Shown piece by piece: positions 3,103 through 24,096 of a stretch of DNA of 24,096 bases. The notes below the pieces were generated by a model that saw nothing but the letters and a program-made list of their open reading frames with translations, ran no database searches and was not told the origin of the DNA. The translations under genes were made by a program, and so were the position numbers. The DNA comes from a virus, in IMG/VR virus record IMGVR_UViG_3300025154_000382, positions 1 through 24,096 of that record. The stretch is one strand, 5' to 3'. Within the stretch, counting starts at the first letter, position 1. The number at the start of each line of letters is the position of its first letter.

Positions 3103-3142
3103 GGTATTGCTCCTTTTTACGTTTGTACTCGTCTTACAAAAT

Positions 3143-7253: not shown

Positions 7254-7630
7254 TACTTAACTCCAAGATTGGCAAATGCAGATGCCGCTGTGAAAAGCGT
7301 TTTACGCCCAGCCAAATGATGATATTTAACTTTGTTGGAATCCAGATAAGCCTTCAATTCTTCATCCGTCATCGCGTTAAAATACTCATTACTTCGGGTA
7401 TCTGGGATGTCAACAGTAATGATTGTTTTGGCGATAGGCTCTGGTTCCGGCTCAACAACTGCTGGCTCTTCAACTACAGGTTCCGGTTCTGGCTGTAATC
7501 CGATTACAGTATCAGGTTGTTTTTCCTGTTTTTCAGGTGGCGAAAATGAGAATCCACAGTATTCTACGCATTCACGCGCATCAACAGGGTCTTTTTCCTT
7601 CGGCGTTCCATCAGGTGCATAAACTAGCAT
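7253..7630 (-). CDS. Hypothetical protein with Pro/Glu linker and HeH/LEM-like C-terminus (125 aa)
   Basis: The N-terminal 35 residues contain two cysteines (RECVEYCGF). A low-complexity linker of Pro-Glu repeats (QPEPEPVVEEPAVVEPEPEP) covers about residues 47-66. The C-terminal part (MTDEELKAYLDSNKVKYHHL, then AGRKTLFTAASAF) resembles the HeH/LEM helix-extended-helix fold often seen in small phage connector-region proteins. An AAGG site precedes the ATG. One copy of the 15-bp dyad lies inside the gene, where it is read as TVIGLQ. Function is unknown; a neck or capsid accessory role is suggested only by neighbours. Confidence 0.65.
   Translation of the reverse strand: MLVYAPDGTPKEKDPVDARECVEYCGFSFSPPEKQEKQPDTVIGLQPEPEPVVEEPAVVEPEPEPIAKTIITVDIPDTRSNEYFNAMTDEELKAYLDSNKVKYHHLAGRKTLFTAASAFANLGVK
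7494..7508 (-). repeat. 15-bp dyad, copy 1 (inside a late gene)
   Basis: An exact TGTAATCGGATTACA on the minus strand, within the coding sequence of the Pro/Glu-linker protein. It is extended to an 18-base identity with copy 2 (ACTGTAATCGGATTACAG). Read as TVIGLQ. Confidence 0.9.
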
Positions 7631-7645
7631 TTGAATTCCTTATAT

Positions 7646-7669
7646 GAAAAGGGCGGCTGTTACACCGCC
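7646..7669 (-). terminator. Possible terminator hairpin
   Basis: On the minus strand, GGCGG pairs with CCGCC across an 8-nt loop and is followed by CTTTTC. It sits between the 55-residue protein and the next gene. The stem is short, so it is probably weak or may act only as an RNA-stabilising hairpin. Confidence 0.45.
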
Positions 7670-7675
7670 ATTGTT

Positions 7676-7843
7676 TTAATCAACATTTGATTGATCTTTA
7701 ATTATAGATAACCAGTGCTCGCATTCCTGAATGGCTCCGACAATCGCATTTCCATTAGCCTGAGCTTGGTTGAACCGCGCCTGCTCTTGTTCCAGATCCT
7801 TGCGCAATTCAACTAGCCGTGCTTTGATAGCTTCTTTATCCAT
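7676..7843 (-). CDS. Small coiled-coil hypothetical protein (55 aa)
   Basis: A short highly helical protein starting MDKEAIKARLVELRKDLEQE, with heptad-like spacing of Leu, Ala and Val. It ends in GAIQECEHWLSIIKDQSNVD. The ATG follows the stop of the upstream structural gene by only 3 bases, so translation is probably coupled or re-initiated. It is followed by a small hairpin with a T-run. Small helical proteins of this kind are common next to capsid and connector genes, where their role is usually unknown. No function is assigned. Confidence 0.65.
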   Translation of the reverse strand: MDKEAIKARLVELRKDLEQEQARFNQAQANGNAIVGAIQECEHWLSIIKDQSNVD

Positions 7844-7846
7844 GCT

Positions 7847-8704
7847 TTACCAATCCGCCACCACGCCACCGCTATCAGAAACATACAGCGGAATCATGTA
7901 GCTCACGTTTCCAATTCGAACGTGCAATCCCTTCTCACAAGTCGCAGCATTTGGGTCTGTGAACAACGTCGGGTCTTGAATTATAGGCGCGACTGTCGCA
8001 GCGTCGAAGTGAATCAACGCACGGGATATAGCTGCTGCTGTTTTGCGGATGCGCCAGATACTTCCGATTTGACCGCTGGCAACTTCGATGTCGTCGATTG
8101 AGGTTTCTTCGCCGCCTACGCTCGTGACATTCGCTTGGAAGCTCTTGAAGTTGACCGCAGCAACACCGCCAGATGTGAAAGTTGCGCCGTCAATGGTCGT
8201 TTTCATCCAGCGCGCAAATACGCCGACCGATGGTGCTGCCGCTGCTGAAAGGATTGTTGCACCCGTTGATACGAATGCGATGTCCTGTCCGCCGAACATA
8301 CTTTGGCATGATGCTGTAGCATCCATATATGGAAACGAACCAGCACCCAAAACCTCAGCAACACCAGTTGTATGCAATTCACGATAATCTGTATAAACCT
8401 GCGCCGGGGTGTCTGCTACAGTCCCACTAAAACTAGTCCATCCAGATGTTCTGGTAGGATTAACACTAGCTCCGCGAATAGCGTTGCAATTGCTAGGAAG
8501 AGTAGAGCCTTCAAGGTTAATTGGATGGCTCAATGGTGTACCGCTTGACAGATCAATAGCATCTGCCGTAATCGTTTCAAATGCACTTGCGCGCTCACTT
8601 GCTGGGAGATTTACTTCATCTTCAAGAGCAGCAGAAACAGTCTTTTTTTCAATATGCTGGATATTGTCATTGACTGCTACAACAACGTCAATAGTATTAG
8701 CCAT
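7847..8704 (-). CDS. Putative virion structural protein (285 aa)
   Basis: The protein is rich in Ala, Ser, Thr and Gly with a beta-rich pattern, begins MANTIDVVVAVNDNIQHIEK and ends VRIGNVSYMIPLYVSDSGGV. The composition and the C-terminal strand are typical of surface-exposed phage structural proteins. A perfect AAGGAGG site lies 5 nt before the ATG, suggesting strong expression. It lies between the cement-like protein and the connector genes, where a head fibre, decoration or minor capsid protein would be expected. The central region mentions no enzymatic motif that I can recognise. The family is not identified. Confidence 0.6.
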   Translation of the reverse strand: MANTIDVVVAVNDNIQHIEKKTVSAALEDEVNLPASERASAFETITADAIDLSSGTPLSHPINLEGSTLPSNCNAIRGASVNPTRTSGWTSFSGTVADTPAQVYTDYRELHTTGVAEVLGAGSFPYMDATASCQSMFGGQDIAFVSTGATILSAAAAPSVGVFARWMKTTIDGATFTSGGVAAVNFKSFQANVTSVGGEETSIDDIEVASGQIGSIWRIRKTAAAISRALIHFDAATVAPIIQDPTLFTDPNAATCEKGLHVRIGNVSYMIPLYVSDSGGVVADW

Positions 8705-8720
8705 AATGCCTCCTTGAGAA

Positions 8721-8746
8721 ATTGGGCGAACCGAAGCCCGCCCAAT
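8721..8746 (-). terminator. Hairpin after the cement-like gene
   Basis: On the minus strand, ATTGGGCG pairs with CGCCCAAT (8 bp). The loop contains a TTCG and the hairpin is followed by TTCTC. It lies directly between two structural genes. The T-tract is poor, so it may be a leaky terminator or a processing or stability hairpin. Confidence 0.5.
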
Positions 8747-8754
8747 TATTTACT

Positions 8755-9171
8755 TTAGTCTTTCGCAATAAATGCCGCGAAATTGATTCCGGTTGCAATA
8801 GCACCAGCTACTTCAGTATAAATACGGACATAACGGTAAGTCGTGCCATTCTGTTCATTGCGGAACGGAACAACAAAGCGACCTATGCCAGTGTCAGCAT
8901 CAGCAGGTGCAGTTGCATTTCCCATCTCGATTTCTGCCAAAGAGACAGAACCAGATGTCATTGCGGCAACATTTGAGCCTTCCAAACAGATGAGATAAAT
9001 TTCATCAGTTGAAGCAACTTCAACAGCAGAAACGTCCAGAACCAAGTAACCATCCACCAAGCCTGCACCCAAATCGAGGATGGTAGATTCAGTAGTGGTA
9101 GTCGTTACAGCACCAGCGGCCTTTAGAGAAAGGGCGTTGTCATAAGTGAATTGCGAGTAGATATTAGCCAT
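8755..9171 (-). CDS. Capsid cement / decoration-like protein (138 aa)
   Basis: A small beta-rich protein placed directly after the capsid gene. It reads MANIYSQFTYDNALSLKAAG, then TILDLGAGLVDGYLVLDVSA, then DEIYLICLEGSN, and ends with RFVVPFRNEQNGTTYRYVRI. This pattern and position resemble the Bbp16-type capsid cement proteins of BPP-1-like phages, which strengthen the HK97-fold shell at its surface. An AGGAG site lies 9 nt before the ATG. The similarity is from memory of the family pattern, so the specific family is less certain than the general role of an outer capsid protein. Confidence 0.6.
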   Translation of the reverse strand: MANIYSQFTYDNALSLKAAGAVTTTTTESTILDLGAGLVDGYLVLDVSAVEVASTDEIYLICLEGSNVAAMTSGSVSLAEIEMGNATAPADADTGIGRFVVPFRNEQNGTTYRYVRIYTEVAGAIATGINFAAFIAKD

Positions 9172-9185
9172 GTTAGCTTCTCCTA

Positions 9186-10112
9186 TTAAGCGGTTACTGC
9201 GGCATCAGAGATGCTCCACAGACGGGTTGCGGCACGACCATTGAATACGCCGAAGCCATTGTACCATTCAACACGGGTACGATATACAGGCGCGGTTTGC
9301 AACTCACCCATATCACGAACATCAATCCCGCCATTCTGCAAGCCCAACACGCCATCATTGCCGAAACTCAAGACATAGATAGATGTTGCAGTATCAGTGC
9401 CAGAAGTAGCAGCCTCGCTGAACGGAAGAATCGCAGTTCCGGTATTGTCCAAGTCGATGGTCATAATCGGCAGACCGTTGTAATACTCGATTGGAGCACC
9501 AAACTCATCACGCTCAAATGTCAAGAAGCCACCGATAGACGAACTACGCGATGCTTGAGTGATACGACGCTTCATTGCCTTGCTCATCAACAGATGGGTA
9601 GGATTCAATGTCTGGTCAATCGCCTCATCCAGCTTATTCAGAGACAATGCAGTACCGTTAGCGGTAGTACCGGCTTGAATCTTCTGCGAACCAGTAATAC
9701 GAGTTTGCAGACCATCAAACTCACGCGGGTCAGTTGCGGTATCACCCTTGACGAACTTGCGAGTCCATGCCAACGACAATGCGCGAATCTTCATCGCTTC
9801 GTGAACGGAACGCTGATTCATGCCCATCGTATCAATGATGAACTTGTCAACGTCCAAATCACCACCAGCGATAACCAGCGATTCAGTCAGAGGATTCAGA
9901 ACACCAGTAGAAGGCGTATAGGATTCATTCACGCCACGGAAACCAACACCGGGCAGACTTTCTTCACGATTGTATTTCAGCGCATTACCAGCGATGCCTT
10001 CAAAAGGAAGATTTTGGAGAATTGCAGACGAACCTGCATACATTTCGATAATAGCCTGACGAACTGCGTCGCCAGTTTCCAGCTTTGCGGCTTCCACAAG
10101 GGTTAGTGCCAT
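9186..10112 (-). CDS. Major capsid protein, HK97 fold (308 aa)
   Basis: This is the main shell protein. It starts MALTLVEAAKLETGDAVRQA, followed by a helix, a beta region around GNALKYNREESLPGVGFRGV, the long spine-helix region (LTESLVIAGGDLDVDKFIID), and a C-terminal domain with PIEYYNGLPIMTIDLDNTGT and VYRTRVEWYNGFGVFNGRAA. The N-terminal helix followed by the GDLDVDKFI segment and the closing RVEWYNGF strand is typical of phage capsids in the BPP-1-like group. I chose the ATG at 10112 because an AAGGAG lies 7-8 nt upstream. A longer frame to 10160 exists, but it lacks a ribosome binding site. Scaffold precedes it and a cement-like protein follows. Confidence 0.85.
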   Translation of the reverse strand: MALTLVEAAKLETGDAVRQAIIEMYAGSSAILQNLPFEGIAGNALKYNREESLPGVGFRGVNESYTPSTGVLNPLTESLVIAGGDLDVDKFIIDTMGMNQRSVHEAMKIRALSLAWTRKFVKGDTATDPREFDGLQTRITGSQKIQAGTTANGTALSLNKLDEAIDQTLNPTHLLMSKAMKRRITQASRSSSIGGFLTFERDEFGAPIEYYNGLPIMTIDLDNTGTAILPFSEAATSGTDTATSIYVLSFGNDGVLGLQNGGIDVRDMGELQTAPVYRTRVEWYNGFGVFNGRAATRLWSISDAAVTA

Positions 10113-10179
10113 GATGATACTCCTTAAAAAGTTGAGATTTATTTTCCATACCACGGTCATCCCGACCTAGTAAGTTTCG

Positions 10180-10207
10180 TTACACAGCACTCCGTCCCGA
10201 AGTGTAA
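10180..10207 (-). promoter_or_regulatory. Leader hairpin before the capsid gene
   Basis: TTACAC and GTGTAA pair on the minus strand in the gap between scaffold and capsid genes, with an alternative inner pairing CACT/AGTG. There is no T-run, so it is more likely an mRNA-stability or processing hairpin than a terminator. Confidence 0.35.
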
Positions 10208-10217
10208 TACGTTTCTA

Positions 10218-10964
10218 CTATTTACGTCCTGCTGCTGCCGCCCTCGCCGCTGTCAATCGCTCGACAGGTGGCAAGTTTGAAAAATCCTTCCCACCAACTT
10301 TCTGCGGTTTTCCTGTTGCCGGACTACCAGAAGATGTTACCTTGAATAGCCACGGCTTTGTAGCGCGACATCCTTCAAGATACTCTTCCGGCGAATATGG
10401 GCTTTTACCATCCTTCCCGATAACAACCGAACCATCTTCGTTATACTGTACTGCGCGACCATTTTCATCAAGTGCGAAAATAGTACGTAGATGACCAAGC
10501 AACATTTCATCTACTGCGCCAGTCTGAATATCTGAAATCTTGTTTGCGGCAGATCGGAAGGCATCATCAAGAACCCTATCCTTATAGGTATTCGCCTTTG
10601 ATTCTGCTGCTGCAATCTTGTCGCCTAATTCCTTCTTTTGACGCTCTTCTTCCAGTCGCCACTTTTCGGTGCGCTTCTGGAATACTTCATCAATCTTACC
10701 GTTGGCAATCAGTTGAGCTTCTTCGTCATTCTCAAACTTTGCCATAAATTCTTTTGTTTTCAGCGGGTCGATTCCGTCAAACTTCCTCAACGCTTCACGC
10801 GCTTCTTTTGCTGCCTGCCGTTCTTTCTCAAGCGCAGACTTCAATCCTTTAGTATCTTCAATTCCGTTTACATCCAGTTTGAATTTACCTTCACTTGCAA
10901 CATACATATCCTTCAATGCTTCCGGTACTGAATCCAATGTGTCAACAATAAGTTCAAGAGCCAT
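10218..10964 (-). CDS. Capsid scaffolding protein (248 aa)
   Basis: The protein guides capsid shell assembly and then leaves. It shows the expected features: an acidic N-terminus (MALELIVDTLDSVPEALKDM), a long charged coiled coil from about residue 40 to 130 (SALEKERQAAKEAREALRKF, then FQKRTEKWRLEEERQKKELG), and a small basic C-terminal part (ERLTAARAAAAGRK) suited to binding capsid subunits. It sits immediately before the capsid gene. A foreign-looking module separates it from the portal, its usual upstream neighbour. The ribosome binding site is weak. The assignment is from composition, coiled coil and gene order. Confidence 0.8.
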   Translation of the reverse strand: MALELIVDTLDSVPEALKDMYVASEGKFKLDVNGIEDTKGLKSALEKERQAAKEAREALRKFDGIDPLKTKEFMAKFENDEEAQLIANGKIDEVFQKRTEKWRLEEERQKKELGDKIAAAESKANTYKDRVLDDAFRSAANKISDIQTGAVDEMLLGHLRTIFALDENGRAVQYNEDGSVVIGKDGKSPYSPEEYLEGCRATKPWLFKVTSSGSPATGKPQKVGGKDFSNLPPVERLTAARAAAAGRK

Positions 10965-10985
10965 TTTATTTAACCATCCCAGTTA

Positions 10986-11001
10986 GTTATCACTTGATAA
11001 C
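10986..11001. promoter_or_regulatory. Operator-like palindrome, copy A
   Basis: GTTATCACTTGATAAC is a palindrome with 7-bp arms and a 2-bp centre. It lies between the endonuclease gene and the scaffold gene. It matches a second palindrome at 11682-11697 in 14 of 16 positions. A binding site for the nearby helix-turn-helix protein is possible. Confidence 0.5.
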
Positions 11002-11022
11002 AAGTTCATTGTAAATAACAAA

Positions 11023-11568
11023 TTAAAAATAGTCAAGTGAGCACTTACTACCATCATAATCAAAAGAATTAAGATATATATTTATTTCTTTATCAAATTC
11101 TATTCTTTTATCTTCAAGCGATTTTCTTATTCTATCCGCTTTCATTTTATCAGTTACTATAGGTCTTATTTTTTGCATTGCAATAGCTAGATTTTTTTTA
11201 TGATCTTCTGATAATTTTCTTCCGATCATCGCTTTTGATCTTTTTTCTTTTCCTTCATCAGACATTTTTATGCCTAATGAGCTTTTTGCAGTAGGATTTA
11301 AGTTGTATCCATTTTTAACTGAATCATAAATATCAATAGCGCGCTGTTCATACATTAAAAGATTATTTGTATCGCAAATTATCAATCTAATAAATTCAAA
11401 TGAATCCTCTCCATACTTATTCCACGCATGTTGTAATTTGTTATTACAATGTACATTGTGGCGCAATTTGCTTTTATGTTGCTTAAGTCTTATCTTAAAT
11501 GACTTTGTGCTGCCAACATATAATTTGCCATTTATATTATTTCTTATAGCATAAATACCAGAAATCAT
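11023..11568 (-). CDS. GIY-YIG family endonuclease, homing type (181 aa)
   Basis: The catalytic domain is clear. GIYAIRNNINGKLYVGS at residues 4-20 carries both GIY and YVG motifs. Arg27 follows in IRLKQH, Glu74 in LLMYEQRAID, and Asn91 in NGYNLNPTA. The C-terminal part (MSDEGKEKRSKAMIGRKLSE) resembles the NUMOD3-type DNA-binding repeats of homing endonucleases. Free-standing enzymes of this type cut intron-less or gene-less alleles and so spread themselves among related phages. The gene is markedly more AT-rich than the portal, scaffold and capsid genes around it, has no obvious ribosome binding site, and sits between portal and scaffold, which are normally adjacent. This fits recent insertion. 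Confidence 0.85.
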   Translation of the reverse strand: MISGIYAIRNNINGKLYVGSTKSFKIRLKQHKSKLRHNVHCNNKLQHAWNKYGEDSFEFIRLIICDTNNLLMYEQRAIDIYDSVKNGYNLNPTAKSSLGIKMSDEGKEKRSKAMIGRKLSEDHKKNLAIAMQKIRPIVTDKMKADRIRKSLEDKRIEFDKEINIYLNSFDYDGSKCSLDYF

Positions 11569-11622
11569 ATTCTATATATTATGTTAATATAACGTCGCAA
11601 GATTATGATACTAAAGAAAGAA

Positions 11623-11640
11623 TGTCAAGTATATTTGACA
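11623..11640. promoter_or_regulatory. Dyad with two outward-facing TTGACA hexamers
   Basis: TGTCAA-GTATAT-TTGACA is a perfect 6-bp dyad upstream of the endonuclease gene. On the minus strand its TTGACA could be the -35 of a promoter for that gene, with CATAAT or TAATCT as a weak -10. It could equally be an operator. Both roles are inferred. Confidence 0.4.
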
Positions 11641-11681
11641 TAACACATATTTTAAGCTGCATATATGCTAACGATTATTGC

Positions 11682-11697
11682 GTTATTACTAGATAAC
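11682..11697. promoter_or_regulatory. Operator-like palindrome, copy B
   Basis: GTTATTACTAGATAAC lies within the larger dyad GCGTTAT-TACTAG-ATAACGC (11680-11699) and directly touches the -35 of the rightward promoter. It differs from copy A at 10986 by two bases. Its place suggests control of the helix-turn-helix gene, perhaps by its own product. Confidence 0.55.
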
Positions 11698-11699
11698 GC

Positions 11700-11728
11700 T
11701 TGACACGATAATGCACATTTGCTATATT
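11700..11728 (+). promoter_or_regulatory. Strong sigma-70-type promoter for the inserted rightward module
   Basis: TTGACA (11700-11705), a 17-base spacer and TATATT (11723-11728) make a near-consensus promoter. Transcription would start near 11735 and run toward the helix-turn-helix gene, against the surrounding late operon. Confidence 0.75.
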
Positions 11729-11868
11729 TAATTGCTGGTGAATGCGCAGACTGATGCGTAACATTGCAGGTAAATGGTCATAGCCTAACTTAAGAGGTTA
11801 TCCTGACAGGAAATATGACATGCTGGATTAGTATCAGTACCAGCCACCAGTACCTAATAAAGGAATAT

Positions 11869-12632: not shown

Positions 12633-12635
12633 AAT

Positions 12636-12863
12636 TCATTCCTCCATTTCGTTAAACAACAATAACGTCATCAACATTTCCTCATCGTCATCAGATATTT
12701 CAATATTACCGTTTGTTGTCTGATTGATTGCATGATATTGCTCGCCATTAGCAGTAATTGCAGCTTGAGATACTGATTGCTGCTGTAATCCGATTACAGT
12801 TTCAATTATCAAGGATAATTGTCAATACTTCGGTAGCGGCGTTTGTTCGTAATCGCTAATCAT
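12636..12863 (-). pseudogene. ORF with an in-frame TGA at codon 14 (recoded, broken or shorter with a TTG start)
   Basis: An ATG at 12863, 4 bases after the stop of the preceding gene, opens MISDYEQTPLPKY and then meets TGA (12824-12822, followed by C). The same frame continues for 61 codons: QLSLIIETVIGLQQQSVSQA, then a Gln/Asn-rich part, then an acidic end (ISDDDEEMLMTLLLFNEMEE). The alternative start is a TTG at 12812 without a ribosome binding site. The spacing to both neighbours fits one gene, so this is either a nonsense mutation, read-through at a leaky TGA-C context, or a shorter gene. It also contains copy 2 of the 15-bp dyad. No family was recognised. Confidence 0.5.
12784..12798 (-). 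repeat. 15-bp dyad, copy 2 (after the portal gene)
   Basis: An exact TGTAATCGGATTACA on the minus strand. It lies in the ORF with the in-frame TGA and is again read as TVIGLQ. A TTGACA lies about 20 bases upstream on the same strand, without a well-placed -10. Confidence 0.9.
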
Positions 12864-12867
12864 AAGA

Positions 12868-14588: not shown

Positions 14589-14633
14589 GCGAATACCTCG
14601 CGTAACGAGTAATTTTCGCAAGGGTATCAGCAT

Positions 14634-14663
14634 ATTATAGAATATGCAAGTGTGTGCTTACAA
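14634..14663 (-). promoter_or_regulatory. Candidate promoter before the portal gene
   Basis: TTGTAA (14663-14658, overlapping the terminase stop), an 18-base spacer and a perfect TATAAT (14639-14634) on the minus strand. The start point would be near 14627, about 40 bases before the portal ATG. Confidence 0.45.
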
Positions 14664-16004
14664 ACCAGTTATGGTAGCGAACTGCATGACGTGATTCTTT
14701 TGAAGTTCCATAAAGCACCTAGATAATGAGTCACACTGATCGTCGTGAGAGCAATTTGGGAACCCTTCAAGTTCCTTAATTAGTTCTTCATTCCATTTTG
14801 CGCGTAACATTTTTACATTGCCAGAATTCAATTGGCTCGCAAAGGGTTCCGCCCTTGTTACCTTATCGCCTGATTCTGGGCTTGACGATATTCTGAATCC
14901 TGATAGCTTTCGTGTAAGATGTTGCGCCATGAATTTTCCTGCTGCACCGGGATCCACGGGCAGTGATTGCAATACACTAAGTCCGTCGCGGGTTGCTGTT
15001 GCAAGCAATGTATTCTCAACCTCTTCAGGCATTCCACGAAAACGCACAATATCGCATATTGTATATCTACCTTCATAATCGACGTGCAATAGTGCGCCCA
15101 CGCTGTAATCTGGGTCATTACCTTTCTTCTCGTCGTAGGCTGTACTTGCGAAGTCCCACGCACGCACAAAACGACCGCCAATCGGCATTACGTCAATATA
15201 CGATACATTTTTAGTAGTAAACACTCCACCCTCTTTAGCGATGCGAGGCTGCCCCATCCAAATATTTAGATACTTATCATAATCCATTTCCTTCATCTTC
15301 TCAGCAAGCATGATGGATGATTCGTCGGCTAGATTATTGTCAATATAATTGACGTGGATAAGAGTTACGTCTGGGTCTGGTGTTAGAACGAATCTACGGT
15401 ACACATAATCGTCAACATTACCTGTATTGAAGCCAATCCATATCTCTGCATCCTTGACACGGATAGTGGGGTCTAACTCATCGAACGTTTCTTCGGCAAG
15501 GTCAACTGCTTCCTCAATCCAGCATATCTTAGTACCTTCAAGAGATTTAATTTCTTTCATGTTGTGCTTCAATCCGCGAAACACAAAGTCAGTACCAGAT
15601 TTTCTATGGCGGATTGCATTCACAAGCACATTGAACTCGCCATCAAGGTGCAAGTCTTTTATTCTATTCTCAAGAACAGATAACACTGAGTCTGCAATAG
15701 TGGATTGAATCTGTCGGCAGCAAAGTACGGTTTGTTTTTCTTCCATTGCACGGAGAATTGCGGCAAGTGCAAAAGTCCAGGACTTCGCAGCCGCGCGTCC
15801 GCCATATGCCACATAATACCGAGTCCGCTTATGCCCTCTATCGACGATACGATGCTCTGGAATGAGGTATCCATTCTCAGGATTGATTATCCTGCGCTTG
15901 CTATCGAATGCGCCTTCTATCTCTTTGCCGTTGACGATGATAATCGGTGCGCGATTTTTCTCGAACAAAGGAAGCCATAATGGCGAGGGAAGCTCTAATT
16001 CCAT
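14658..16004 (-). CDS. Terminase large subunit (448 aa)
   Basis: This is the ATP-driven DNA packaging motor and nuclease, of the Terminase_3 (PBSX-like) type. Walker A is GGRAAAKS at residues 68-75. Walker B is ICWIEE at 160-165 with the catalytic glutamate. The motor continues with the coupling motif around WIGFNTGN. The nuclease domain begins at RAWDFAST (Asp284), includes LPVDPGAAGK, and ends in SHDDQCDSLS near residue 430. The ATG at 16004 is preferred; it has a GGA 6 nt upstream and gives a usual N-terminus (MELELPSPLWLPLF). A GTG at 16106 in the same frame would add 34 residues that do not look like part of the family. The Walker A has Ala residues where many relatives have Gly or Ser. 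Confidence 0.92.
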   Translation of the reverse strand: MELELPSPLWLPLFEKNRAPIIIVNGKEIEGAFDSKRRIINPENGYLIPEHRIVDRGHKRTRYYVAYGGRAAAKSWTFALAAILRAMEEKQTVLCCRQIQSTIADSVLSVLENRIKDLHLDGEFNVLVNAIRHRKSGTDFVFRGLKHNMKEIKSLEGTKICWIEEAVDLAEETFDELDPTIRVKDAEIWIGFNTGNVDDYVYRRFVLTPDPDVTLIHVNYIDNNLADESSIMLAEKMKEMDYDKYLNIWMGQPRIAKEGGVFTTKNVSYIDVMPIGGRFVRAWDFASTAYDEKKGNDPDYSVGALLHVDYEGRYTICDIVRFRGMPEEVENTLLATATRDGLSVLQSLPVDPGAAGKFMAQHLTRKLSGFRISSSPESGDKVTRAEPFASQLNSGNVKMLRAKWNEELIKELEGFPNCSHDDQCDSLSRCFMELQKNHVMQFATITGL

Positions 16005-16277
16005 ATTAAATCCAAATAAGGTGCATAACAGATACTCAGGTCGCTCAGTCGTTCGATATGTTCCCAACCGAATATCGGTCAACAGACCTCGATTTCTACC
16101 GTACACTTAAGTACGGCTATCCCGAACAAACGTCTTATGGGACGAACTGCCCTCAATGATACCTGTTATGCAAAACTGTTAAATTATCTACAATCCATTC
16201 CGCCATCAACTACAAAAACTATTAACATTACTCAATGAATTCAACTAGCTATTATTGACAGTTAATCCGCCATATCT

Positions 16278-16844
16278 CTAAATCTTCGGCAAAGTAACGC
16301 CAGTTTGACCTTGATACTTTCCGCCACGGTCTTTATACGAAGTCTCGCATACTTCATCAGCCCAGAAGAATAGGAATTGTGCGATACCTTCGTTGGCGTA
16401 TATCTTCAATGGAAGCGTAGTTGTATTGGATATTTCAAGCGTTACTTGGCCAGTCCACTCTGGTTCCAATGGCGTAACATTTATAATTGCACCGCATCTT
16501 GCATACGTCGATTTACCCAAGCAAATAGTAAGCACATTACGCGGTATCTTAAAATACTCAACAGTCCGTGTAAGCGCAAATGAATTAGGCGGAATAATAC
16601 AATAATCGCCTTTCACGTCAACGAAGCATTTTTCGTCAAAGTTCTTTGGGTCAACTATCGTACTGTTGATATTTGTGAATATCTTGAATTCGTCTGAGCA
16701 ACGAGCATCATATCCATAGCTTGAAGTGCCATAAGATACGATTCGTTTCCCATCAATTTCTTTCACTTGGTTTGAGCTGAATGGTGAAATCATGTCGTGA
16801 TTTTCTACCATCCTGCGAATCCAGCTATCAGACTTTATGCTCAT
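16278..16844 (-). CDS. dcd: dCTP deaminase (188 aa)
   Basis: Converts dCTP to dUTP, feeding dTTP synthesis. It matches bacterial Dcd in length and motifs: [10 protein letters not shown] and [12 protein letters not shown] near the N-terminus, the nucleotide-binding motif [16 protein letters not shown] (110-125), the EPEWTG motif, catalytic Glu137 in [22 protein letters not shown] and the C-terminal [12 protein letters not shown]. Host dUTPase would be needed for the next step. Its start overlaps the DUF3310 gene. In phages this enzyme usually supports DNA synthesis, so its place beside the terminase genes inside a late operon is a mosaic arrangement. Confidence 0.95.
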
Positions 16845-17052
16845 TTTCTCTCTTTTCTATTTCGCAATCTAAATACCAACGTGCTTTACGCAAATCTTCA
16901 ATTGCATTTCCTTTTAGGTCTGCCCTCCAAATATATTTCAGCGCATTACCTAAACAAAATCCCATGTGTTTCGTTATCTGGATTGTTTCGATTCCACTTG
17001 GATGGCTAGTATAATGCTTCGGATGATTTACGTTATCATTCGTTATCATCAT
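16828..17052 (-). CDS. DUF3310 family protein (74 aa)
   Basis: A compact match to the DUF3310 phage family: [20 protein letters not shown], then [20 protein letters not shown], then [20 protein letters not shown]. The family has the pattern H-P-x-H-Y, then I-E, then G-N-x-x-K-Y-x-x-R, all of which are present. Members are frequent in phages and are often annotated as possible nucleotide kinases, but no activity is established. It lies between the small terminase and dCTP deaminase and overlaps both. A role in nucleotide supply fits the deaminase next to it and is inferred. Confidence 0.85.
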
Positions 17053-17614: not shown

Positions 17615-17829
17615 TGCAGCTTCGGCACATCTTTAGGTTGAACTTCGCAGCAACCGCAATCGCATTCATTATCATCCTCTGCCATTTCGTTGCAGATAGA
17701 TTGCCACTGTGCCTTGTACATTGTCTTTAGTGTTGTCAATGCGCCAATGACTTCGCTATAGTTAGTTTCATCTGCATCAAACTTGTCGCCAATGAAGTCC
17801 ATCAAACTGTCAAACAGGTCTTTGCTCAT
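17611..17829 (-). CDS. Hypothetical acidic protein with C-terminal cysteine cluster (72 aa)
   Basis: Starts MSKDLFDSLMDFIGDKFDAD, contains a helical region (SEVIGALTTLKTMYKAQWQS) and ends with ECDCGCCEVQPKDVP. The C-x-C-x-C-C cluster may bind a metal. The family is not recognised. AAGGAGG lies 6 nt before the ATG, inside the end of the ribbon-helix-helix gene, and the two genes overlap as ATGA. Expression is therefore probably coupled to both the repressor-like gene before it and the small terminase after it. Confidence 0.65.
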   Translation of the reverse strand: MSKDLFDSLMDFIGDKFDADETNYSEVIGALTTLKTMYKAQWQSICNEMAEDDNECDCGCCEVQPKDVPKLQ

Positions 17830-19392: not shown

Positions 19393-19393
19393 A

Positions 19394-19603: not shown

Positions 19604-19604
19604 A

Positions 19605-19805
19605 TCACCTCCCTCCGAAAATATCTTTCAAAAAATCCGGCATTCCACTTGAATGAGATTTATTACGATTACGATTTTGATAGATACTTTCTTTGATTAT
19701 GTCGTTACACGGCTTGCAATATACTGCCATGCCAGCGCGCACCTTCGCATCGCGCAATGTCGCCATGTATTTATCGCAATGTTCGCAATGGAGTTCGGTT
19801 GTCAT
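19605..19805 (-). CDS. Small zinc-ribbon protein, probably leaderless (66 aa)
   Basis: Starts MTTELHCEHCDKYMATLRDA, with a second knuckle VYCKPCND about 20 residues later, giving a four-cysteine zinc ribbon. The C-terminus is basic, then MPDFLKDIFGGR. The start at 19805 was chosen on promoter grounds: TTGACA, 17 bases, then TATATT places the predicted transcription start exactly on this ATG, and a longer frame beginning at 19832 lies inside the promoter. No ribosome binding site is seen for either. It is the first gene of the leftward late operon. Confidence 0.65.
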   Translation of the reverse strand: MTTELHCEHCDKYMATLRDAKVRAGMAVYCKPCNDIIKESIYQNRNRNKSHSSGMPDFLKDIFGGR

Positions 19806-19811
19806 TGGTGC

Positions 19812-19840
19812 AATATACATACATATACACATTCTGTCAA
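19812..19840 (-). promoter_or_regulatory. Main leftward promoter
   Basis: TTGACA (19840-19835), a 17-base spacer and TATATT (19817-19812) on the minus strand. The start site should fall at 19805, on the first base of an ATG, giving a leaderless mRNA. A dyad copy at 19856-19870 lies just upstream, centred about 58 bases before the start, a position typical of activator sites. Confidence 0.75.
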
Positions 19841-19855
19841 TTACTTTGTAAATAC

Positions 19856-19870
19856 TGTAATCGGATTACA
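19856..19870 (+). repeat. 15-bp dyad, copy 3
   Basis: Exact TGTAATCGGATTACA, 15 bases upstream of the leftward promoter's -35. It also occupies most of the spacer of a weaker minus-strand promoter-like pair (TTGACA at 19880-19875, TACAGT after 16 bases). Confidence 0.9.
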
Positions 19871-20052
19871 CTTTTTGTCAATAAATCTGTTCACGCTACC
19901 TGCTTTGTTCATTTTTGATGAACATTCCATAAATGTGCATGTTCGTTCCCAATTTGGGTATATCAGCCAAGTTTGCGCATGATGATTCGCATATAATTTA
20001 ACCAATATTCCAAATTACCAGCAGATTTTAATAAATAATGGCAAATCGGAAC

Positions 20053-20067
20053 TGTAATCGGATTACA
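20053..20067 (+). repeat. 15-bp dyad, copy 4
   Basis: Exact TGTAATCGGATTACA. It is flanked on both sides by CAAATC(G/C)G-like sequences (20042 and 20072), a possible secondary site. Confidence 0.9.
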
Positions 20068-20085
20068 CCTTCAAATCCGTGAAAA

Positions 20086-20118
20086 GTTATACTTCCTTTC
20101 TAGGATAAATAGTATAAC
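20086..20118. promoter_or_regulatory. Long dyad in the control region
   Basis: GTTATACT (20086-20093) and AGTATAAC (20111-20118) are perfect 8-bp arms, with a further TCCT/AGGA pair inside. There is no T-run, so it is more likely a protein site or cruciform than a terminator. Confidence 0.5.
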
Positions 20119-20209
20119 TCTATTCAAGAATCAGGAACTCACGATTACACTTGGTCACTTAGGATGGGACTATGTTAAACGTATTCTGTATTCAAGAATT
20201 AAGAATAGA

Positions 20210-20224
20210 TGTAATCGGATTACA
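20210..20224 (+). repeat. 15-bp dyad, copy 5
   Basis: Exact TGTAATCGGATTACA, 38 bases before copy 6, so the two could bind a protein on nearly the same face of the helix. Confidence 0.9.
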
Positions 20225-20247
20225 GAGTTTAGACTTTACTTTAAGAG

Positions 20248-20262
20248 TGTAATCGGATTACA
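20248..20262 (+). repeat. 15-bp dyad, copy 6
   Basis: Exact TGTAATCGGATTACA, 37 bases before the -35 of the rightward promoter, centred about 79 bases upstream of the predicted start. Confidence 0.9.
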
Positions 20263-20299
20263 CTTTTCTCACTGTTTAGCGTTACCGTGAAAATAGTTG

Positions 20300-20327
20300 T
20301 TGACTTGGTTGGTGGAATGTGGATAAT
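20300..20327 (+). promoter_or_regulatory. Rightward promoter before the structured RNA
   Basis: TTGACT (20300-20305), a 16-base spacer and GATAAT (20322-20327). Transcription would begin near 20334. The -10 overlaps a DnaA box (TGTGGATAA, 20318-20326), so DnaA binding could interfere with transcription. Confidence 0.6.
20318..20326 (-). other. DnaA box overlapping the rightward -10
   Basis: TGTGGATAA, the exact complement of the E. coli consensus TTATCCACA, in the non-coding control region. It supports an origin or replication-linked control. Confidence 0.5.
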
Positions 20328-20333
20328 GACTAC

Positions 20334-20460
20334 CTATCAGCCATTTGCGGGGCTAAATAAAGTGATGACCTAGTGTTATCAGGCATGTAGGGGAGAAATC
20401 CCGCCAACTTTATTTGGTACTGCAAACTACATGACCTGAAAGCACTAGGTCTTTTGTTTT
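20334..20460 (+). ncRNA. Structured RNA with a three-way junction and U-rich end
   Basis: GACCTAGTG (20367-20375) pairs perfectly with CACTAGGTC (20443-20451). The stem continues inward as TCAGG-CATGTAG (20379-20390) pairing with CTACATG-A-CCTGA (20427-20439) with one bulged A, so about 21-23 base pairs in all. At the top are two small hairpins, GGG-agaaat-CCC (20391-20402) and CCAA-ctttat-TTGG (20404-20417), and the unpaired joint TACTGCAAA. A U-rich tract CTTTTGTTTT follows the base of the stem, as in a terminator. A weaker outer pair ATCAGCC/GGCTGAT (20337-20343, 20461-20467) may extend the fold. It could be a small regulatory RNA or a leader switch. No known family was recognised. Confidence 0.6.
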
Positions 20461-20766
20461 GGCTGATGAAAAGTTACAAGCGATGTCAGACCTAAGTTTG
20501 CTGGCAACAAAGTCCAACTCAGAATGGAGCGCGCTCATAACAGGAATATCTGGACGCGGTAAGCAACCAGCGGATATTCCGGGCAGTGATACTGGGGGGA
20601 TAAGGGGAGAGTAAATCGCACATCGCGTCGAGGTTAGCACGATGACCCGCAAGGCTGACGAAACATACCTAATGCTCAAGTGCCAGAAGGTTGTAAAGGG
20701 ACTCCATTTCGCTAGGGATAGAGTCTCTACGCCCACAGACTCAGCACCAGAAGCTTAAAAGCGGTG
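20461..20766 (+). ncRNA. Second structured leader segment before the rightward operon
   Basis: No credible ORF is seen on the plus strand, but stems are frequent. GGAATATCTGG (20543-20553) pairs with CCAG-cg-GATATTCC (20567-20580). CAGT/ACTG and CATCG/CGATG hairpins follow. Then GAGTCT(C) at 20721-20727 can pair either with GGGACTC upstream (20698-20704) or AGACTC downstream (20737-20742), but not both. Last, CACC (20745-20748) can pair with the GGTG ribosome binding site (20763-20766) over a small GCT/AGC hairpin. The segment is G-rich and higher in GC than nearby genes. It may be a long untranslated leader or part of a larger RNA. Confidence 0.4.
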
Positions 20767-20775
20767 ATTGATAAT

Positions 20776-21213
20776 ATGACAGACGCAGAAAAGATAAAAC
20801 GCAAACTTAGATTGGCACAAGAGCGCGATGATAAGAAAGCGATACACCAAGAAACGGTAGTTAAGCCAATGATGATGTGCTTAACCAATGATGAAGTAAA
20901 GTTGATAAAAGAACGTAGAAAATCAAATCCAGTTAAGAAAATAGCAAAGCCAGTAAAAAAGAAGCCGTGTTGCAAAAAGTGCGGATTGCCAATAGCGTTT
21001 AAGAAAGTGGGCGATAAGTGGCATCCTACCAATATTGATGGCACAGATCATTGGGACTTATGCAATGCAACCAGACGCGAAGGAAAGCCGTTTAATCCTG
21101 ATACTGACACGCAATCATCTGGATTTATAACCGGAGAAAATTACATCGAAACTAACTGCGATTGCTTGGCGTGGGTTGGATGCGACAAATGTAGAATGGA
21201 GAATCATGCTTAA
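20776..21213 (+). CDS. Lysine-rich zinc-ribbon protein (145 aa)
   Basis: The first 60 residues are helical and very basic (MTDAEKIKRKLRLAQERDDK, then LIKERRKSNPVKKIAKPVKK). A four-cysteine ribbon follows: CCKKCGLPIAFKKVGDKWHP then WDLCN, and a second group NCDCLAWVGCDKCRM ends the protein. Such proteins often bind nucleic acid, which fits the basic region, but no family was recognised. The ATG at 20776 has GGTGA 9 nt upstream; a GTG at 20764 in the same frame is less likely. It is the first gene of the rightward operon and overlaps the next gene by 8 bases. Confidence 0.7.
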   Translation: MTDAEKIKRKLRLAQERDDKKAIHQETVVKPMMMCLTNDEVKLIKERRKSNPVKKIAKPVKKKPCCKKCGLPIAFKKVGDKWHPTNIDGTDHWDLCNATRREGKPFNPDTDTQSSGFITGENYIETNCDCLAWVGCDKCRMENHA

Positions 21214-21409
21214 AACCTGCCAAACTTGCAAACAATCCAAGCCACTAGGAGAGTTCTTCAGCCCACCACAAGGCGCGGCAACATCTTGGCAAGGTACTAG
21301 CGCGAATTGCAAACAGTGCCACAAGGAAGCGAAAGTGCCGCATGGCTACGGAGCATACGGCAACAAATGGACTTGCCCAGACGATACTCCGTTTGGACGG
21401 GAAGTGTAA
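21206..21409 (+). CDS. Small zinc-finger protein, HNH-associated type (67 aa)
   Basis: The sequence MLKTCQTCKQSKPLGEFFSP and the second knuckle NCKQCHKEAKVPHG match a common phage and bacterial zinc finger (C-x-x-C-x-x-x-K-P-x-x-x-F, then C-x-x-C) that is often found at the N-terminus of HNH or endonuclease VII-like proteins. No nuclease motif follows here, so it stands alone. GGAG lies 4 nt before the ATG. It overlaps the previous gene by 8 bases. Its stop codon TAA is part of dyad copy 7. Confidence 0.65.
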   Translation: MLKTCQTCKQSKPLGEFFSPPQGAATSWQGTSANCKQCHKEAKVPHGYGAYGNKWTCPDDTPFGREV

Positions 21410-21419
21410 TCGGATTACA
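21405..21419 (+). repeat. 15-bp dyad, copy 7
   Basis: Exact TGTAATCGGATTACA overlapping the stop codon of the zinc-finger gene, 69 bases before the PP-loop gene. Confidence 0.9.
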
Positions 21420-21487
21420 GATAGAAAGTGAAGCAGGGTAGGAAAGATGCCGGAAAGACTGCGAAATTATAATTGAATGGAATTAAA

Positions 21488-22255
21488 ATGATTGCATTAT
21501 CTTATGGTGGCGGAACTAACTCAGCGGCTATGCTTGTTGGAATGAATGAATTGGGCATTAGGCCTGATCACATAACTTTTGCTGATACAGGAGCAGAAAA
21601 GCCGCACACATATAAACATATTGAAATAATTGATAAATGGTTAATTGAAATTGGGTTTCCTTCAATAACTGTTGTAAATCAATTAAAACGTGATGGGACA
21701 TTAAATCAATTAGAACAATTATGCTTAGATAACAATATGCTTCCATCAATAGCTTATGGATACAAGAGTTGTTCATTGAAACATAAAGTAGCTCCACAAG
21801 ATAAATTTTTCAATAATCTTGATGATGCAAAAGAAATTTGGAATACTGGCGAAAGTATAATTAAATATATTGGATATGACGCAGATGAACATCATCGCGT
21901 TAAATTTCATAAATCAGAAGATGGTAAGTATATCTATCAATATCCATTGATAGAATGGAATTGGGGTAGGGATGAATGTATAAACGCTATTATCAGAGCA
22001 GGACTTCCTTTACCGGGTAAATCTGCATGTTTTTTTTGCCCATCAAGTAAAAAACAAGAAATTTTACAGTTGAAAAAAGATTATCCTGAGTTGGCAGAAA
22101 GAGCAATTATAATGGAGAAAAATGCACATCTAACAAGTGTAAAAGGCCTTGGAAGAAATTTTGCATGGAGTGATTTATATCTTGCAGATGAAAACCAAGG
22201 AAAGCTATTTTGTGAAAGTAATATAGAAATTGATTGTGGGTGCTACGATGGATAA
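21488..22255 (+). CDS. PP-loop ATPase, PAPS-reductase-like (255 aa)
   Basis: The ATP-pyrophosphatase PP-loop is SYGGGTNSAAML at residues 5-16, followed by FADTGAEKPHTYKHIEII, a conserved block of PAPS-reductase-like proteins. A CFFCPSSKKQEI motif near 181-192 is also seen in phage members. Real sulfate-assimilation enzymes have a different C-terminal cysteine motif, so sulfate reduction is doubtful. Known relatives modify nucleic acid bases or take part in DNA sulfur chemistry, and either would suit a phage. The start ATG at 21488 has GGA upstream; a TTG at 21473 is less likely. The gene is strikingly AT-rich (many AAA, ATT and TTA codons), suggesting transfer. Confidence 0.75.
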   Translation: MIALSYGGGTNSAAMLVGMNELGIRPDHITFADTGAEKPHTYKHIEIIDKWLIEIGFPSITVVNQLKRDGTLNQLEQLCLDNNMLPSIAYGYKSCSLKHKVAPQDKFFNNLDDAKEIWNTGESIIKYIGYDADEHHRVKFHKSEDGKYIYQYPLIEWNWGRDECINAIIRAGLPLPGKSACFFCPSSKKQEILQLKKDYPELAERAIIMEKNAHLTSVKGLGRNFAWSDLYLADENQGKLFCESNIEIDCGCYDG

Positions 22256-22439
22256 AAATAATGAGATATTAGAATTGGAATCATTATGTGAAATACTTTT
22301 TTCTGCATTATGCAGAGCACCACAATATCATAATGACCAATGTGATAATAATGCAAGAAAGCAAATAAGATTCGCAATAAATTTTGCAAGAAAAAGTAAA
22401 TCCATGAAAAGAATAAAAGAACGTATTGTTGGTGTATAA
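22248..22439 (+). CDS. Hypothetical protein (63 aa)
   Basis: Reads MDKNNEILELESLCEILFSA, then LCRAPQYHNDQCDNNARKQI, then a basic end (RKSKSMKRIKERIVGV). Three cysteines occur, but not in a CxxC pattern. The family is unknown. Its start overlaps the stop of the PP-loop gene (ATGGATAA), and it shares that gene's AT-rich codon use, so the two probably arrived and are expressed together. Confidence 0.6.
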   Translation: MDKNNEILELESLCEILFSALCRAPQYHNDQCDNNARKQIRFAINFARKSKSMKRIKERIVGV

Positions 22440-22457
22440 ATACAGCAAGCAAGCCAA

Positions 22458-22466
22458 TTATCCACA
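22458..22466 (+). other. DnaA box in the gap after the PP-loop cassette
   Basis: A perfect TTATCCACA followed by an AT-rich stretch, in the non-coding gap 22440-22577. Confidence 0.45.
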
Positions 22467-22537
22467 AACTAGATTTTTTCAAATTTACAATTAGCGCAGG
22501 TCGATTAGCAAAATAACTAACACTTTTTCTATTTGTA

Positions 22538-22546
22538 TGCTATAAT
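22538..22546 (+). promoter_or_regulatory. Extended -10 promoter for the downstream zinc-ribbon genes
   Basis: TGC-TATAAT is an extended -10 with a perfect hexamer (22541-22546). The -35 region TAACAC is poor, as is usual for this promoter type. Start near 22553, just before the ATG at 22578. Confidence 0.6.
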
Positions 22547-22577
22547 GCTTGATATTTGGATTGATTGGAGAAGAGAA

Positions 22578-22853
22578 ATGAGTGATACAGCAAAATGTGC
22601 AATTTGTGGTGAACCAATGCCGATAGGCGAGGAAATGTTCAAGTTCCACGGATATAGCGGAGATTGCCCAAAGCCGCCAGTACCGAAACAGCCAGTTAAG
22701 CAAAAAATACCGGGATTGGTATGGGCTGTTGCCGCAAAGGACAAACGCACAGTATCAATGATGTTCGACACCAACGAACAGGCTAATGCGTTCGTGGCAT
22801 CTGTTGATGCTGATGAACCGCATATCGTAGTTCACGAAACGGATAAAAAATGA
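22578..22853 (+). CDS. Zinc-ribbon-start hypothetical protein (91 aa)
   Basis: Starts MSDTAKCAICGEPMPIGEEM with a C-x-x-C knuckle and a later DCPKPP, so it probably binds one zinc. The second half is an alpha/beta segment (GLVWAVAAKDKRTVSMMFDT, then NEQANAFVASVDADEPHIVV) without recognised motifs. GGAG lies 7 nt before the ATG, and an extended -10 promoter lies just upstream. A longer frame to 22533 starts within the promoter. It overlaps the next gene as ATGA. Confidence 0.7.
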   Translation: MSDTAKCAICGEPMPIGEEMFKFHGYSGDCPKPPVPKQPVKQKIPGLVWAVAAKDKRTVSMMFDTNEQANAFVASVDADEPHIVVHETDKK

Positions 22854-23053
22854 CAAAAGCAATTGCGACATGGGTTGTAGAACTTAACTGTACCTGCCCC
22901 TTGTGCGGGGATAGGGTTGATTTGCTCGACTACGCGGATTTCTGGGATGGTAGGAAGCTCGACGTGCCTGAGCATGGAACAGAGAGAAGTAGGGATATTG
23001 ATGTAAGGTGTCCTAAGTGCGAAAACGAATTTACTGTAGATTGCGAATACTGA
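22850..23053 (+). CDS. Zinc-ribbon protein (67 aa)
   Basis: A clear four-cysteine ribbon: VELNCTCPLCGDRVDLLDYA with CxCxxC, then VRCPKCENEFTVDCEY. Proteins of this shape are often small nucleic acid binding or adaptor proteins. The family is not recognised. Its start overlaps the preceding stop as ATGA, so it is translationally coupled. Confidence 0.7.
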   Translation: MTKAIATWVVELNCTCPLCGDRVDLLDYADFWDGRKLDVPEHGTERSRDIDVRCPKCENEFTVDCEY

Positions 23054-23054
23054 T

Positions 23055-23375
23055 ATGGGCATTATTGAAGAAAATAAAGATGAGTGGTGTGATGACTGCC
23101 ATTCCTATACACATAAGAGCGGGAATCCGTGTTTAACTATGGAGAAGAAAATGCAAGTGATTAAGCTGGAAGTGATTATTATTGACATGGATGAGCTGGG
23201 GGCTGAAGAGATCAAAACTGTGATCGAAAATCAGCGATACCCAAACCATTGTATTTCGCCGTATGTGCGCAAAATGGATGTGCGAGAAATAGGCGAATGG
23301 AGCGATAAACATCCGATGAACTATCTAGATAAACGGGAATCGGAATTAGTCCGCTTGTTCGGGCATAACGTATAG
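23055..23375 (+). CDS. Hypothetical protein with possible internal start (106 aa)
   Basis: The first 32 residues carry a metal-site-like cluster (EWCDDCHSYTHKSGNPCLTM). A second domain follows from MQVIKLEVIIIDMDELGAEE through IKTVIENQRYPNHCISPYVR to EIGEWSDKHPMNYLD, a pattern I have the impression of seeing in small phage proteins of unknown function. The ATG at 23151, which begins this second domain, has GGAG 6 nt upstream, a better site than that of the first ATG. Two products, or a shorter gene of 74 residues, are possible. No function is assigned. Confidence 0.6.
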   Translation: MGIIEENKDEWCDDCHSYTHKSGNPCLTMEKKMQVIKLEVIIIDMDELGAEEIKTVIENQRYPNHCISPYVRKMDVREIGEWSDKHPMNYLDKRESELVRLFGHNV

Positions 23376-23377
23376 CC

Positions 23378-23572
23378 ATGAACGACGACAAAAAAATATC
23401 CGAGTTAGCTTACAGGCTTGAAACCGACAACGATACCCGTATTCTAATCGCAACTCACTTCTTCACAGCCGAGAAAGCAAAGCAGCTAATGCGCGATGCA
23501 GGATACGGCGTTACAGGTACGGATATTCTTCACACAACAAAGTTGATGCTGCAAGACGTTCAAGATAGATAA
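23378..23572 (+). CDS. Hypothetical protein (64 aa)
   Basis: A helical acidic protein: MNDDKKISELAYRLETDNDT, then RILIATHFFTAEKAKQLMRD, then GYGVTGTDILHTTKLMLQDV. No motif was recognised. It follows the previous gene by 2 bases and ends the run of rightward genes. The ribosome binding site is weak. Confidence 0.55.
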   Translation: MNDDKKISELAYRLETDNDTRILIATHFFTAEKAKQLMRDAGYGVTGTDILHTTKLMLQDVQDR

Positions 23573-24096
23573 GATTAGCATTCCCATATCAACGCACCAC
23601 TACCACCAAGCAATCGCGCTAATCAGCTTCCTGACACGGATACGGGCTATCTGATAGCAAGTCAGATTATCTAGAAATCCGCTATTTTTCAAATCTGAAT
23701 TCAACTCACGACAATTCACCATCTGTAATCGGATTACACTTAGGATACTTCTATCGCAAATTGAATCGCATACAGGGATAATGATGGGATGATAATATAA
23801 TAGCGTCGCATCTTGGGGGTGATTGCGTTTGAAAAAAAGTATAGGGAAGGTTGGCGTCGATTTCAAGAGGAGGGGCAAAAGGTGAACACAATCAACAGCT
23901 TACGAGGGGCGCGCTCTTGCGTATGTTGGTGACTACTAACGTGACGCAATTTGCGGCACTATTGTGACGAATTTTGTCACTTATCTGCGTTATGTCAAAC
24001 GTATCGAGCTGCCTATATTTTAGGCAATCGTGCTGTAAGTCAATAGGCGCGACATTCTAGCAAATAGTTATGCACAATGGCATGATGTGGCATGGT
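23573..24096. other. Right-end region without a clear gene
   Basis: It contains an inverted pair GATTAGC/GCTAATC (23573-23579 and 23618-23624) that may end the rightward transcript, although there is no T-run. It also has dyad copy 8, a GTGAC/GTCAC dyad (23964-23980) and a GCCTA/TAGGC hairpin (24011-24025). A 37-codon GTG ORF (23819-23932) encodes a basic peptide (MIAFEKKYREGWRRFQEEGQ) but has no convincing ribosome binding site. An internal GTG at 23881 follows GAGGAGGGG but gives only 16 codons. The region may be the control region of a further operon to the right. Confidence 0.4.
23724..23738 (+). repeat. 15-bp dyad, copy 8
   Basis: Exact TGTAATCGGATTACA in the non-coding right end, followed by CTTAGGAT, a sequence also seen after the half-site near 20143. 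Confidence 0.9.

Follow-up and report, generated by a model that had tools for sequence, protein, structure and literature searches.

The DNA analysed here, hereafter the window, is a 24,096-bp virus fragment (IMG/VR record IMGVR_UViG_3300025154_000382) from an uncultivated siphovirus, in which one odd palindrome of 15 bp, TGTAATC-G-GATTACA (the 15-mer), is repeated. Leftward genes fill 2.3-19.8 kb, with portal, terminase large subunit, major head and scaffold proteins among them, and rightward frames start near 20.7 kb. Relatives of the portal protein in named phages share about 31-32% identity with it, and a nucleotide search of the window against phages gave no match. The leftward late region contains two of the palindromes and the divergent early region (19856-20262) another four; the remaining two are further right (Table 1).

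We searched the window for copies on both strands, allowing up to three mismatches, and observed eight exact ones, as the first-pass annotation had reported. The 17 matches obtained consist of the eight sites, counted in both readings, and a single three-mismatch match at 3124; the reverse reading of each site deviates at the central base alone. Variants with one or two mismatches were absent from both strands of the window, where no other odd palindrome with arms of at least 6 bp was repeated three times either. When the window was shuffled 100 times, the same search gave 0.75 matches on average and 4 at most, which rules out a chance origin and bears out the earlier statement that the repeats far exceed expectation. 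Some simple roles were also rejected: an RNA hairpin by argument, without folding, because a one-base centre gives a poor loop; a promoter element because TGTAAT can match a -10 at some sites only; and a LexA box, whose spacing differs from that of the 15-mer.

The first-pass annotation had proposed to look for the 15-mer in relatives. In these relatives, which we call family 1, we found nine exact copies in G001, nine in G002 (together with one variant of one mismatch and one of two) and eight in G011; seven family-1 contigs, picked because they carry the 15-mer, hold 46 copies in 121 kb. The central base of family-1 sites is G or C, and the 41 distinct sites show a flank preference aC...Gt (-1 C in 30/41, -2 A in 30/41, +1 G in 22/41, +2 T in 20/41). 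On the right arm the plus-strand centre is G in 34 of 35 distinct sites, a bias for which we have no explanation; left-arm sites occur either way. The late-gene site at 7494 is found at the same place in L046, L014, L017, L397 and G021, and over six orthologous loci, two of which have the same sequence, its 14 arm bases are identical while the centre is G or C. Since the arms are kept in frame while the encoded residue flips between Gly and Arg, the 15-mer is constrained at the DNA level. This late gene lacks the 15-mer in G019, G020 and G022. The in-frame motif of the 12784 type recurs in G015, G019, G020, G022 and G026, and G001 and G002 have no 15-mer at the corresponding gene. Both flanks of the 19856 site are kept in G001, G002, G003, G004 and G011, and the left flank of the 21405 site is homologous at sites in G001, G008 and G015.

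Table 1. Copies of the 15-mer and other features of the window (PL and PR, leftward and rightward promoter-like sequences)
Feature	Coordinates	Strand	Remarks
15-mer site	7494..7508	-	inside late gene 7253-7630 (125 aa); encodes VIGL in TVIGLQPEPE
15-mer site	12784..12798	-	inside predicted 58-aa frame 12636-12812, weakly called (TVIGLQQQSVSQ)
15-mer site	19856..19870	+	upstream of PL, centre at about -58
15-mer site	20053..20067	+	divergent early intergenic region
15-mer site	20210..20224	+	paired with 20248 site around a 23-bp spacer
15-mer site	20248..20262	+	upstream of PR, centre at about -79
15-mer site	21405..21419	+	overlaps stop end of 67-aa frame 21206-21409
15-mer site	23724..23738	+	left flank homologous to sites in G001, G002, G008 and G016
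Promoter-like PL	19812..19840	-	TTGACA, 17-bp spacer, TATATT; consensus match, not evidence of function
Promoter-like PR	20300..20327	+	TTGACT, 16-bp spacer, GATAAT; consensus match only
Ribbon-helix-helix protein, 46 aa	17826..17966	-	PF01402, E 5e-7; in 11 family-1 contigs

Scanning IMG/VR for the 15-mer gave at least 117 loci. Among those listed, eight have a ParB-like gene by hidden Markov model, and in seven of the eight the 15-mer is inside that gene. A 17-mer scan returned 32 stretches on 28 contigs, 22 of which belong to family 1; four of the other six have a ParB-like gene (L030, L075, L032 and G007), none was detected in L040, and G010 matches G007 at 99.5% identity along 22.8 kb, a part without such a gene. 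In a second phage group (family 2), whose members G009, G013, G017, G023 and G024 are mutually related by DNA, the 15-mer of G009, G023 and G024 is contained in a gene whose product has a helix-turn-helix and, in its N-terminal part, ParB-like motifs. The ParB-like gene and the same 15-mer are found together in these three contigs and in G007, L030, L075, L032, L124 and L210. In loci that had not been fetched by the 15-mer it is rare (3 in 866 kb, 0 in 890 kb, 2 in 953 kb and 0 in 444 kb), and the five matches represent three sites, each in the ParB-like gene of a contig that is also among the matches of the 15-mer scan. We set aside a repeat shared with hosts, since genome_contigs contained no 15-mers paired 12-42 bp apart and 60 bacterial loci fetched for their ParB-like genes contained no 15-mer; single sites in hosts were not scanned.

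In G007 (L137:3515-5946), a ParA-like frame, recognised by eye, adjoins the ParB-like one, and the contig ends carry four 15-mers, so that the whole resembles a partition locus; the outer bases of these 15-mers are the AC...GT preferred in family 1. No ParA-like frame was noted in the gene lists of families 1 and 2, for which no profile search was made. By tblastn (E 0.01), no regulator is common to family 1 and either the second group or G007/G010; the only matches between these families were GIY-YIG and HNH-type proteins and one 46-aa protein.

We then considered the protein encoded by the gene that carries the 15-mer. An AlphaFold2 model computed from alignment A2 (42 sequences; pLDDT 88, pTM 0.60) shows, in this order, a ParB-like N domain, a helix-turn-helix (121-128, 132-139), a long helix, a weak stretch at about 161-180 and a coiled coil; in G024 the 15-mer encodes residues ~163-166, within the weak stretch. 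The top Foldseek hits of the model were ParB (6sdk, E 1.5e-6), Noc (7nfu, 2.2e-5) and KorB (8qa9, 6.5e-5), and the A1 profile retrieved sulfiredoxin and ParB from the PDB. PHROGs assigned four of five proteins, the fifth being a 120-aa fragment, to phrog_1033, ParB-like partition protein. On the basis of this model, the gene product is predicted to have the ParB/Noc/KorB fold.

To see how general the in-gene palindrome is, we collected ParB-like genes by protein searches (80 loci, 60 bacterial loci and 80 more, overlapping). The 226 frames obtained correspond to 174 distinct proteins, 15-mer carriers included; two were dropped for lack of sequence, leaving 172 genes. In 66/172 genes the recognition helix is followed within 210 bp by an odd palindrome with arms of at least 8 bp, against 1/172 in an equal earlier stretch of the gene and 18/3307 random windows. 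With the 15-mer carriers removed the figures were 58/163, 0/163 and 16/3118, respectively. In whole contigs of relatives, 14 of 18 records have 1-5 copies of their own core and the control pattern has none. The complete phage MW202545, whose helix carries QS at the two variable positions defined below, contains eight scattered copies of its own predicted palindrome, two of them in its ParB-like gene. In Acidovorax phage AP1 the ParB-like gene is free of odd palindromes, and no palindrome is repeated in the 38 kb examined of Paracoccus phage R3. Distant ParB-like genes (L269, L292, L258, L273 and others, from Planctomycetes, Acidobacteria and other groups) also have odd palindromes of ~15-41 bp right after the helix-turn-helix.

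The recognition helix has the motif VS-a-b-F, and we tested residue a against base -5 of the palindrome and residue b against base -3 in 71 genes with arms of at least 7 bp, with no tree-based correction in any test. An acidic residue a goes with C at -5 (17/19 vs 4/52, p 9e-11), His with G (15/16 vs 2/55, p 2e-12) and Gln with T (17/18 vs 14/53, p 3e-7). At -3, A is found with Pro as residue b in 23/23 cases, and G with Ser in 10/12 and with Thr in 3/7; in an earlier count Ser/Thr went with 18 G, 1 C and 3 A (p 8e-9 for A versus not-A). After clustering at 80% identity (57 proteins) the counts were 16/18 v 4/39 for acidic:C, 12/13 v 2/44 for His:G, 9/9 v 13/48 for Gln:T and 15/15 for Pro:A, and the rules for residue a hold at 60% (p 7e-4, 6e-5 and 0.02, respectively). 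In held-out loci, acidic:C was seen in 11/12 and His:G in 8/9. Close relatives change in concert: L165 (QP, CTACTAATC) and L317 (QS, CTACTAGTC), 93% identical, differ by Pro to Ser together with A to G, and residue and base switch together as well between L196 (HP, GTGGAATT) and L198 (HS, GTGGAGTT), 87% identical. By motif, residue a corresponds to ParB R173/Noc Q158, the residue that reads the first base of parS/NBS according to PMC7383237.

In the 15-mer itself the bases at -5 and -3 are T and A, respectively. Its carriers have AP (G024, G009, L032), VP (G023), HP (L030, L075), HN (G007), HS (L210) or RD (L124) at the two positions, and residue b is Pro in five of seven genes containing an exact 15-mer (L146, L143, L148, L030 and L032; L030 and L075 counted once). 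G007 has tandem sites and a one-mismatch site in its ParB-like gene.

Taken together, the exact repeats, the constraint on the DNA, the 15-mer within ParB-like genes of other phages, the in-gene palindromes, the covariation and the fold, all of them computed, make it rather probable that the eight copies are loading or operator sites of the parS or KorB-operator type for a phage ParB-like protein (phrog_1033). The window's phage would encode this protein in the unsequenced part of its genome, and the protein would bind the eight sites and thereby regulate transcription, perhaps with a clamp or CTP step. A dimer would read the two 7-bp arms through the two variable residues of the recognition helix, and the single central base pair would not be read. 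By binding the sites clustered at the divergent early promoters, the protein could repress early transcription or co-ordinate it; the scattered sites within and between late genes could be extra loading points or distal operators in the manner of KorB on RK2, and by analogy with KorB a global regulator would load at the 15-mers. Family-1 sites are centred at about -58 from PL-like promoters in four cases and at -67 to -80 from PR-like promoters in five; others are within late genes.

Several observations weigh against this reading. No ParB-like gene was found in the family-1 contigs, which do not close the genome (best E 2.2 in one search and 0.21 in another, none at 1e-3). In walks toward the missing part, a primase query matched G001 and G002 only, and a tail-protein query gave 22 loci with neither 15-mers nor ParB-like genes. 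In the other direction, 6 of 157 ParB-like loci have distant relatives of the portal or terminase genes of family 1 nearby, by which such a gene in the missing part becomes plausible but no more than that. Only four of the window's eight sites have a promoter-like match at 80 bp or less. Among the ParB-like genes, only 80/172 have an odd palindrome with arms of at least 6 bp after the helix and 92/172 have none, and the own core is single-copy in the fetched locus of 60/71 homologues. The rule for residue b gives p = 0.10 after 60% clustering, and held-out loci (Pro:A 3/3, Ser/Thr:G 1/3, p = 1) are too few and leave it unconfirmed. L163 (KS) contradicts the Pro versus Ser/Thr rule by its longest palindrome, L124 and L210 misfit at b, although L210 also holds two fitting palindromes, and a second palindrome in L030 fits residue a better than the 15-mer does. 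By TM-score (0.28-0.41 of the query) the Foldseek matches are modest, and Pfam ParB_N was found in only one of four proteins, below the cut-off. The proposal of the first-pass annotation that these are KorB/ParB-type operators is supported indirectly, by the in-gene 15-mers, the fold and the covariation, and only in part, no reader gene having been found in the family-1 contigs.

Two small early frames occupy 20764-21213 and 21206-21409 of the window; the second, which contains a zinc-ribbon resembling the N-terminus of HNH proteins, precedes a conserved site. Directly downstream of the PR-like promoter, at 20543-20663 (+), a Betaproteobacteria-1 RNA (RF02932) scores 50.6 bits for a gathering score of 49.4.

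Among the readers suggested by the first-pass annotation is the protein at 17826, and the sites could be operators of a family-specific regulator, most simply this ribbon-helix-helix protein repressing PL and PR, the 15-mer having arisen elsewhere by convergence or serving the regulators of those elements. Ribbon-helix-helix proteins read palindromic heptads, this one is kept among the family-1 contigs and encoded in the operon behind PL, and there are 15-mers near both PL and PR. However, it has no significant match in the other 15-mer contigs (best E 0.99, in G009), where ParB-like genes hold the site, and many sites are distant from promoter-like sequences or within late genes. We therefore consider it the weaker candidate and this explanation unlikely.

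The 15-mer could alternatively be kept as a recombination joint where gene cassettes are swapped by a recombinase, by a homing nuclease or through homology. A single site in G002 corresponds to site-gene-site in G001, with matching outer flanks; two early segments, A and B, have in the window the order opposite to that of G002, G004 and G011; and about 1.6 kb in G001 replaces the 23-bp spacer between the 20210 and 20248 sites, G001 and G002 having different 1.6-kb inserts between sites. With strong flanks (window, G001 and G002), homology breaks at 22/34 sites, against 308/1097 right-arm and 204/483 intergenic control positions; a broader and noisier count over nine contigs gave 49/66 sites against 1114/2219 intergenic and 5644/16825 genic controls. 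Endonuclease genes of homing type are also common. But the same arm is mosaic everywhere and the comparisons are not independent, both flanks are conserved at 17/66 sites in the nine contigs, tblastn revealed no recombinase common to the site-bearing families, whose genomes are incomplete, and palindromes after the recognition helix of ParB-like genes would be left unexplained. We judge exchange improbable as the primary function; the sites often coincide with mosaic junctions, and since the right-arm region is mosaic anyway, we regard recombination as a side effect, if nothing more.

GIY-YIG and HNH endonuclease genes occur near the portal, terminase and early regions (window 11023-11568; L132:2114-2935; L132:4492-5100; L134:12463-12999), their homing type being a guess. 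In G002 (15754-16869; L135:2754-3869) the gene of a TnpB-like OrfB protein (PF07282, PF01385) ends ~150 bp before a 15-mer site.

Finally, the phage of the window could be without a ParB-like gene of its own and use its sites to hijack a ParB made by another element in the cell, a plasmid or a phage; the G007 element, with its ParA-like and ParB-like frames and its matching outer bases, would be an example. This would agree with the failure to find the gene in family-1 contigs and with a plasmid parABS hijack reported for SGI1 (PMC10954446), but is the least probable explanation, the family-1 genome being incomplete and some ParB-like loci lying near relatives of its portal or terminase genes.

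Returning to a phage ParB-like reader, we would give roughly even chances to a broader proposal, that of a widespread, self-addressed family in which, for many of the genes, a palindrome in the protein's own frame, just after the code of the reading helix, serves as its address and the two-residue code predicts sites genome-wide; the eight window sites would be the addresses of one member, doubling as seams of module exchange. With an address in frame, protein and address would move together. In the papers retrieved, mostly outside subscription journals and including PMC12704722, PMC6536676, PMC4351075, PMC11790492 and PMC7383237, we saw no mention of a phage ParB-like gene that contains a recognition site. 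Dispersed perfect palindromes with no assigned reader had already been described in phages (Cluster O; PMC4351075); a reader family is now proposed, and its code can be checked by swaps of single residues and single bases. If the proposal is true, what surprises most is that the address lies in the gene and that its code can be read, and in uncultivated phages one gene would suffice for annotating the global regulatory sites.

Among known systems, the stoperators of Cluster A (L5-type) phages are similarly numerous repressor-type sites spread over a phage genome, and the first-pass annotation had likened the 15-mers to them. However, stoperators are asymmetric and oriented with transcription, according to PMC4351075, whereas the 15-mers are palindromes whose centre flips between G and C in orthologues, and the likeness as proposed finds no support. 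The same source describes in Cluster O mycobacteriophages 17-bp dyads with arms 3 bp apart, in more than 30 copies, about a third of them in coding regions, with no assigned role and with some indels between repeats. Like these, the 15-mers are many palindromes with invariant arms running through genes and intergenic regions, but they have a one-base centre and eight copies. In the Cluster O phage Firecracker, none of 27 repeats (41-kb stretch) lies inside the ParB-like gene gp94; one 17-bp repeat is inside the helix-turn-helix gene gp75 (L398:16969), a possible reader.

Chromosomal ParB/parS and Noc/NBS share the fold and, by motif, the position of residue a (PMC7383237), but here the proteins are from phages, the sites have other sequences and lie in genes, and a parA partner was recognised, by eye, in G007 only. 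As in ParB/parS or KorB/operator systems, the sites are short palindromes with constrained arms in several copies per replicon. The KorB operator is, like the 15-mer, an odd palindrome with a single G/C centre. The 15-mer sequence differs from it, no KorA partner was identified, no reader gene was seen in family 1, sites also occur within late coding frames, and in relatives the reader's own gene contains a site. KorB has the ParB fold, as the proposed reader would, 8qa9 and 8qa8 being among the Foldseek hits of the phage protein. What RK2 shares with the window is palindromes scattered over a mobile genome both near and far from promoters, the distance of KorB operators upstream of a promoter being 4-10 bp or 45 to >1,000 bp (PMC11790492).

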